In this document: piece by piece, positions 45,155-47,131 of the stretch
Layout of the letters: every line of letters starts with the position of its first letter
Numbering within the stretch: position 1 is the first letter of the stretch
NCBI GenBank assembly: GCA_003280085.1
Contig: QCFY01000002.1
Span: 62,001-126,000, forward strand
Origin: Prochlorococcus sp. AG-363-O06
GTDB lineage: Bacteria; Cyanobacteriota; Cyanobacteriia; PCC-6307; Cyanobiaceae
Direction of reading: 5' to 3'
Length of the DNA: 64,000 nucleotides
Made by a program: the position numbers and the translations under genes
The notes under the pieces: model-generated
Told to the model about the DNA's origin: nothing
The model's input: the letters and a program-made list of their open reading frames with translations, nothing else
The model's database searches: none

Positions 45155-46273
45155 CTACCACGTGTGGTGAGCTTGCGAGTCACTATTCCACGGAGCGAAA
45201 TCCTCTGAAAAACAACCTTCAGAGATTGATTGGCGGATTGAACGAGCAAAACGAGTCAAATGATGAAGATTGTGCAAGCTCAAAAGAGTCAGTCCTAGCA
45301 ACTCATTACTACGAATAAGGTGGTGTAGATATGCCCGACTGTGCTTGGCACAAGCCTCGCATTTACAGGTTGAATCTATGGGGTCATGATCATTACGAAA
45401 GCAAGAATTTTTTAAATTCCATCTTTGATCTTTAACCAAAGCAGTTCCATGCCTGCCTAAACGAGTTGGTATTACACAATCAAAAAGATCTATACCCTGC
45501 GAAACCGCTATGGCTAATTCCTTAATTGTCCCTATACCCATCAAGTATCTAGGGGACCCTTCTGGCAGATATGGGCTTAGGTCACGAACTACTCTATGAA
45601 TTTGGTTTACAGGTTCACCGACACTAACTCCCCCAATTGCGATCCCTGGCAAATCGAAACTCGAAACAATTCTTGCGCTCTCTGCACGAAGATTTGAGAA
45701 GCCTCCTCCCTGAATTATCCCAAAAAGAGCCTGATCGGGCCTGTTATGTACAGAAACACATCTTTCCAACCATGCATGAGTCCGCTTACAGGCAATTTCT
45801 ACCTCAGATTCAGTTGCAGAATAAGGAGGACATTGATCAAAAGCCATGGCAACATCTGAGCCAAGTGCCATTTGTATATCTATTGCTTTTTCTGGTGTTA
45901 ACTCAATTTGATTTCCGTCTCTAGGATTGCGAAAAACAACTCCATCATTATCGATTCGATTTAACTTCGCAAGGCTAAAAACTTGAAATCCACCAGAATC
46001 AGTCAATACAGGTCCTTCCCAACCCATAAATTTATGAATACCCCCCGAGTCTTGAATAATTTGCTCACCTGGCTGTAAATGGAGATGATATGTATTAGCG
46101 AGAATCATTGAAGCACCTGTCTTTTCCAATTGAGTTGTTGTAACTCCCTTTACAGTTGCCGATGTACCTACTGGCATAAAAATAGGGGTCTGGATACTCC
46201 CATGTGGCGTTCTAAATTCTCCTAATCTTGCTCGGGTGTTAGAGCAATGTGCTTTGATCTGAAACTCAAACAC
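45155..46273 (-). CDS. tgt: tRNA-guanine transglycosylase
   Basis: A 372-residue protein from GTG 46273, giving the usual start [18 protein letters not shown]; a TTG at 46297 would add eight. The catalytic aspartates are in [12 protein letters not shown] and [14 protein letters not shown], and the zinc ligands in [17 protein letters not shown]. It swaps guanine 34 for preQ1 in tRNAs with GUN anticodons on the way to queuosine. psbK follows on the same strand. Confidence 0.94.
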
Positions 46274-46363
46274 TTTGAAAAATGAAAATATGCACAACTT
46301 GCATGGAGGTCTTCAAGCTTTTCTGAGACTAGTTTGTGCTTTAGCTAATTATGGAGGTTTATT

Positions 46364-47131
46364 CTGCTTAAGACACCTTGGCTAAGAGATTTAAATGGTG
46401 CTTGGATTTTCTACACCATCCTCCCTGCTTGCCCATGGATTAATCCAAGATTCGAGCGCATTGCACGATTTGCTCCATTAATTGGAATATTTATAGGAAT
46501 CATTCAATCTCTCCTTTGGCTTGGACTTGACTATCTAGGCTGGCCAAAGGAATCTTTAGCCATTTTTACAATTTGTACTGAAATCACATTTACAGGTGGG
46601 CTCCATTTAGATGGACTAATCGACACAGCAGATGGAATTGCAGCTGGCAGGACAAAATGCCTTACAGCAATGAAAGATAGCCGAGCAGGTGCAATCGGAG
46701 TAATTGTATTAATAGTTTCTTTATTGCTGCAGATTTCCTCATTAATAAAATTACATCATCTTGCACCTGTGTCAATAATTATTGCTTCATTTTGGGGGAG
46801 ATGTGCTCAATTTTGGGCTATAGAAAAGTTCCCCTATTTAAACGAAGAAAGTAAATCTAATTCACACAAATACTACTGGAAAGGCATAGAAGAAATAATG
46901 CCAAGCTTAATCATAGTACTAGTATTTATTACCCCTTTAATCTTATTAAGCACCTCCTCAACATTATCTACAATATCTATCACAATATTCGGTGTTATAA
47001 CCTGTATAGTTGTTCCTCAATTAATAGGCAAACAATTAAAGGGCCATAATGGAGACTCTTATGGCGCTTCTCTTGTAATCACTGAAACAGCTATGCTTAT
47101 GGCCATTGCATTCATATTGCCTTCAGTATGA
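46364..47131 (+). CDS. cobS: Adenosylcobinamide-GDP ribazoletransferase (cobalamin synthase), probable CTG start
   Basis: The coding frame runs from an in-frame TAA at 46345-46347 to the stop at 47131. No ATG, GTG or TTG occurs in frame before 46670, yet the frame upstream clearly encodes family sequence: TPWLRDLNGAWIFYTILPA at the N-terminus and the active-site GGLHLDGLIDTADG. The best start is CTG 46364, 6 nt after GGAGG (46353-46357); ATT 46361 is closer. That gives 255 residues, family size, with several membrane helices. CobS joins adenosylcobinamide-GDP and alpha-ribazole in B12 (pseudocobalamin in cyanobacteria) synthesis. It overlaps the kinase gene by 20 bp tail to tail. Confidence 0.85.
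   Translation: MLKTPWLRDLNGAWIFYTILPACPWINPRFERIARFAPLIGIFIGIIQSLLWLGLDYLGWPKESLAIFTICTEITFTGGLHLDGLIDTADGIAAGRTKCLTAMKDSRAGAIGVIVLIVSLLLQISSLIKLHHLAPVSIIIASFWGRCAQFWAIEKFPYLNEESKSNSHKYYWKGIEEIMPSLIIVLVFITPLILLSTSSTLSTISITIFGVITCIVVPQLIGKQLKGHNGDSYGASLVITETAMLMAIAFILPSV

Follow-up and report, generated by a model that had tools for sequence, protein, structure and literature searches.

The window analysed here is a stretch of 64,000 nucleotides from Prochlorococcus sp. AG-363-O06. The source genome is a 1.42-Mb assembly of 38 contigs, 77% complete, and the sole member of its own genus-level group among the genomes compared. The genes of interest are cobS and its divergent neighbour tgt (Table 1). 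The cobS product matches TIGR00317 with E=7.8e-37 and 127.4 bits, above the curated cut-off of 110 bits, and PF02654 with E=3e-45 and 155.3 bits (cut-off 23.2). It is 53-57% identical to CobS of its nearest relatives, and this identity begins at the N-terminus; a PDB search for a comparison of the N-terminus returned no match. A scan across genome contigs returned one named relative only, the single-amplified genome Prochlorococcus sp. AG-409-P03, in which the cobS start region is identical to that of locus L002.

Table 1. Positions of the genes and candidate signals around the start of cobS, in window coordinates
Feature	Position	Strand	Basis
tgt, control gene divergent from cobS, ordinary GTG start	45155..46273	-	TIGR00430, E=4e-149
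ACTAGTTTG, the window version of the conserved CCTACGTTG-like box; probable cobS -10 region (TAGTTT 46330-46335)	46328..46336	+	conservation; putative promoter role
In-frame TAA, upstream bound of the possible cobS start region	46346..46348	+	sequence
Six-codon out-of-frame mini-ORF, ATG GAG GTT TAT TCT GCT TAA, probably incidental	46351..46371	+	sequence
Shine-Dalgarno GGAGG, 6 nt before CTG	46353..46357	+	sequence; Shine-Dalgarno conservation
CTG, very probable initiation codon of cobS	46364..46366	+	codon conservation, parsimony, in-place TTG/ATG in sister lineages
cobS CDS from the CTG start, 255 aa, adenosylcobinamide-GDP ribazoletransferase	46364..47131	+	TIGR00317, PF02654, identity to relatives

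The frame of cobS is open from 46349 to 47131, and our reading of the sequence found no ATG, GTG or TTG in it between the upstream TAA and ATG 46670. This ATG lies 107 codons into the frame and 3' of the catalytic HLDGLIDTADG motif. The window has 62 stop-to-stop ORFs of 120 codons or more, and cobS is a clear outlier among them in the number of codons that precede the first ordinary start; the next highest value is 50, and most ORFs fall between 0 and 25. An earlier note on this DNA had described a cobS frame without an ordinary start before 46670, although the motif lies upstream of that position, a GGAGG 6 nt 5' of CTG 46364, and a six-codon mini-ORF in another frame that contains the GGAGG and overlaps the CTG. 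All of these are present in the sequence as described.

Two other genes, the neighbour tgt and the housekeeping gene infC, served as controls and have ordinary starts. The start of tgt is GTG 46273-46271, and nearly all relatives have GTG, ATG or TTG there. NATL-like genomes (L016, L019, L020, L022, L023, L028, L030) are without the usual GTG or ATG directly before the TTT codon of tgt and have a TTG four codons earlier, which indicates that the start has moved. As a second gene with a non-canonical start, infC was rejected: it begins with ATG in 27 of 27 picocyanobacteria (L122-L148), and TGA almost always directly precedes this codon (TGA ATG), whereas E. coli has ATT.

Codon conservation at the cobS start

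A search of 400 genomes of the family identified CobS in 361; in total, we inspected about 155 start regions. Codons were counted from the A of the conserved GAW motif, which places the CTG of the window at -12. Our main comparison comprises 60 low-GC Prochlorococcus-like species outside the high-light clade, and 44 of them have CTG at this column. CTG accounts for 86% of the Leu codons there (a fraction of 0.89 in 29 full-length genes), versus 15% or less (0-15%) at all 20 other Leu-rich columns of CobS, that is, every other column with at least 60% Leu. The same cobS genes encode leucine by TTA (40%), CTT (20%), CTA (17%), TTG (13%), CTC (6%) and CTG (5.4%), and although TTG is thus the commoner codon, CTG outnumbers it 44:1 at -12 in the 60 loci. 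By parsimony over 47 rows, on a CobS tree built without the start region, 7 codon changes are needed at -12, versus 11-27 at 18 control Leu columns. CTG is the majority codon at -12 in 19 of 31 genus-level groups, and the column lacks it in 12. Because the CTG column is conserved across species, the pattern is far beyond chance; only the out-of-frame mini-ORF looks like a chance feature.

Loci without CTG at -12 nearly always have ATG, GTG or TTG nearby (15 of 16). Of the 33 loci that have no ordinary in-frame start at -22 to -8, 32 carry CTG at -12, and the sole exception, L044, has ATG at -23. The association between CTG and the lack of an ordinary nearby start gives p=4e-6 in Fisher's test, which ignores phylogeny, so that relatedness inflates its significance. 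An upstream in-frame ATG, GTG or TTG that is possibly usable occurs in 12 of the 44 CTG loci; the remaining 32 have none nearby. TTG stands exactly at -12 in L088 and in L033, L037 and L038, the last three of which we take to be MIT9313-type genomes. ATG is found at -12 in L059 and at -13, one codon upstream, in L024. In many loci, in-frame stops lie 4-9 codons 5' of the CTG. The NATL-like group (13 species) is an example: its stop is mostly 8 codons before the CTG, and ATT, CTG and ATT are the only near-cognate codons left before the conserved protein.

Upstream of the CTG, at a distance of 5-9 nt, 40 of the 44 CTG loci have a Shine-Dalgarno match of at least 4 nt; among control positions the figure is 17.6%. 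On comparative grounds, the Shine-Dalgarno matches, the codon conservation and the exceptions with ordinary starts therefore show that the -12 column is the initiation codon, and that it stays CTG and does not drift to synonymous Leu codons or to TTG. Judging by its distribution, the CTG start is old and common to most non-high-light Prochlorococcus, about 19 genus-level groups. That cobS of the window starts at CTG 46364, as the earlier note had proposed, is strongly supported by the presence of CTG at the aligned column in so many species, and we consider it very probable. One study counts against this reading: with a CTG start, reporter expression was undetectable in both E. coli and tobacco chloroplasts (PMC9845219).

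If initiation took place at ATT 46361, a rare kind of start known from infC, the CTG would be codon 2. ATT is a known weak start and is the codon before the CTG column in 26 of the 60 species, but this position varies (ATT, ATC, ACC, TTT, CTC, AAA, AAT and others) while CTG is constant. In addition, only 3 nt separate GGAGG from ATT in the window, and sister lineages have their TTG or ATG at the CTG column. As the codon before CTG is not conserved, we rejected ATT 46361 as the start of cobS and regard it as highly unlikely.

An in-frame ATG AGG could have been broken to ATGGAGG by an error in sequencing or assembly, or by the recent insertion of one base, in which case the true start would be ATG 46351. 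This is very unlikely, even though an in-frame ATG AGG occurs at the aligned place in L002, L005 and L012, L012 belongs to the nearest clade of the window, and the window stems from an assembly that is fragmented and incomplete. The same ATGGAGG occurs independently in L007, also out of frame, and this argues against a sequencing error in the window. L011, L037 and L038 have TGGAGG but no ATG. Compared with L012, the distance between ATG and CTG in the window differs by 2 nt. Moreover, CTG is conserved with or without a preceding ATG, including in species where in-frame stops are present and an upstream ATG is wholly absent, and this too makes the missing base suggested earlier improbable. The expectation that close relatives have an ATG here is borne out only by the in-frame ATG near the start in L002, L005 and L012, two of which have lost the CTG; most relatives have none.

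Leader, mini-ORF and upstream box

In the 26 nt upstream of the CTG, ATG is depleted, with 5 seen versus 24 expected from base shuffles. The mini-ORF of the window overlaps both the Shine-Dalgarno sequence and the cobS start, and a four-codon ORF is found at the same place in L007, so that a regulatory leader peptide or translational coupling to cobS might be envisaged. However, an out-of-frame ATG in the leader is restricted to these two of the 44 CTG loci, and their peptides, MEVYSA in the window and MEAT in L007, are unrelated. With ATG depleted overall, the coupling or control put forward in the earlier note is not supported and is barely credible; we rejected the mini-ORF as a conserved element and consider it probably incidental. 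We found no special structure at the cobS start, where the folding energy over 40 nt is the same as in the coding control, and no cobalamin riboswitch in 46150-46500, where Rfam matches were at chance level only and below the gathering score.

A CCTACGTTG box lies upstream of the start column in many species, mostly at a distance of 35-40 nt, and its reading frame varies. Because the frame differs among species, the box is not coding. Its TANNNT core fits a -10 element, and it is a probable promoter or operator between tgt and cobS. As a -10 element, it would predict a cobS leader of about 20-25 nt (about 22 nt in the window) and would place the TTG and GTG codons of the box upstream of the transcript. 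These codons were rejected as a general start, since the frames of the box differ among species, in-frame stops follow the box in L053, L061 and L176, and the box is probably the -10 region. A CCTACGTTG-like box lies about 38 nt before the cobS start in L013, L037, L039, L048 and others, and is often embedded in CAACctacGTTG. A longer near-palindrome, ACTAGTTATATAACTAAT, is present in the NATL-like group.

Candidate starts in other picocyanobacteria

High-light Prochlorococcus has an invariant ATC at -11 in all 17 cobS loci (L069-L073, L093-L101, L103, L106, L121), yet ATC makes up only 6% of its Ile codons. None of the 17 loci has an NTG codon between the upstream stop and the conserved CobS protein, and none has a clear Shine-Dalgarno sequence; in L106, a TAA stands two codons before the ATC. 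An AUC start is likely for these genes. Two groups of marine Synechococcus are without an obvious ordinary cobS start, and other lineages have ATG or TTG. In WH7803-like Synechococcus the -14 codon is CTG, and an in-frame TGA excludes the upstream GTG as a start in L053 and L061. The -14 codon of the other group is ATT or ATC; here the upstream GTG is excluded in L176, by a TGA at -16. In L053, L061, L176 and their relatives, CTG or ATT/ATC are the sole candidate cobS starts after the in-frame TGA.

These wider cases are weaker, since the high-light genomes are closely related and CTG is common in GC-rich genomes. An Ile codon at -14 is also found in Synechococcus relatives that have an upstream ATG. 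From these comparisons, the class of codon and not CTG alone may be what is maintained. It is conceivable, and we put it forward tentatively, that cobS in marine picocyanobacteria is held under a class of starts that IF3 discriminates against: the codon would change but stay non-canonical, and the amount of a B12 enzyme that is toxic in excess would come to depend on the fidelity of initiation.

Probable weak initiation, its possible purpose and known parallels

Our data suggest a model in which the initiator fMet-tRNA would read CTG 46364, positioned by GGAGG on a short leader. The weak codon would be kept because CobS is a membrane enzyme that is toxic in excess, and a weak start keeps its output low. 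The codon would also tie this output to the fidelity of initiation (IF3), in the manner of Streptomyces sigR (GUC) and E. coli infC (AUU). The full explanation, an old CTG-initiated cobS that is kept weak to limit CobS and to make its production fidelity-dependent, appears probable to us. Taken separately, it is somewhat probable that the weakness of the start has itself been selected, and control by IF3, as opposed to a steady low rate, for which we argue by analogy, is doubtful.

Conservation of a start codon that is normally very weak, in 44 or more species, suggests that low CobS production is deliberate on the part of the cell. The strongest sign of selection is that a single C-to-T change would turn CTG into the ordinary start TTG, and yet CTG is kept over TTG by 44:1; for this reason the weak start has probably been selected. 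Elevated levels of CobS, which is a polytopic membrane enzyme, dissipate the proton motive force and kill E. coli (PMC8749415), from which we infer that low CobS dosage is the likeliest purpose. The weak start is not indispensable, since 12 of the 31 genus-level groups do without CTG at the column.

Alternatively, CTG might be the start and have persisted through weak selection or mutational inertia, not through selection for low or regulated initiation. Several lineages have indeed replaced CTG with ordinary starts and show no visible loss of cobS. However, inertia does not sit well with the far greater turnover of the other Leu codons of cobS, with the excess of CTG over TTG, or with the apparent persistence of a non-canonical start in high-light Prochlorococcus and some Synechococcus even where the codon has changed. 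We consider inertia an unlikely account of the pattern.

Very few non-canonical starts kept by selection are known in bacteria (infC, sigR). If our reading is true, cobS, a central gene of cofactor synthesis in highly abundant phototrophs of the ocean, would extend this list by a case of unusual depth, and its starts would probably be mis-called by gene finders restricted to ATG, GTG and TTG. It also suggests a simple way for streamlined, regulator-poor genomes to cap a harmful enzyme. The open-access literature, which excludes subscription papers and UniProt/RefSeq annotation, held no earlier report of a CTG or other non-canonical start in Prochlorococcus. Three features of a conserved non-canonical start are found in cobS: no usable ordinary start, a codon conserved beyond its usage, and a properly spaced Shine-Dalgarno sequence. 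The gene thus joins a small known set and is unusual in its codon, its phylogenetic depth and the kind of gene.

The closest parallel is sigR of Streptomyces, which has a GTC start that is conserved in 32 of 34 species and repressed by IF3, as are starts other than AUG, GUG and UUG in general (PMC5472188). Both genes have a genus-wide non-canonical start with a good Shine-Dalgarno sequence, missed by gene callers, and ordinary starts in sister lineages. In contrast to sigR, which encodes a sigma factor, cobS has CTG and not GTC, encodes a biosynthetic membrane enzyme, and is a single gene divergent from tgt; dependence on IF3 is proposed for it by analogy only. E. coli infC, as far as the account cited in PMC5472188 goes, has an ATT start through which IF3 autoregulates. 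Like infC, cobS has a start that is persistently non-canonical and belongs to the codons disfavoured by IF3, but it does not encode an initiation factor and is not autoregulated. CTG starts also occur in a survey of start-codon turnover in prokaryotes, where switches to CTG were rare (2 of 61,358 ancestral AUG starts; PMC5622118), whereas in cobS the CTG start persists across many genus-level groups.
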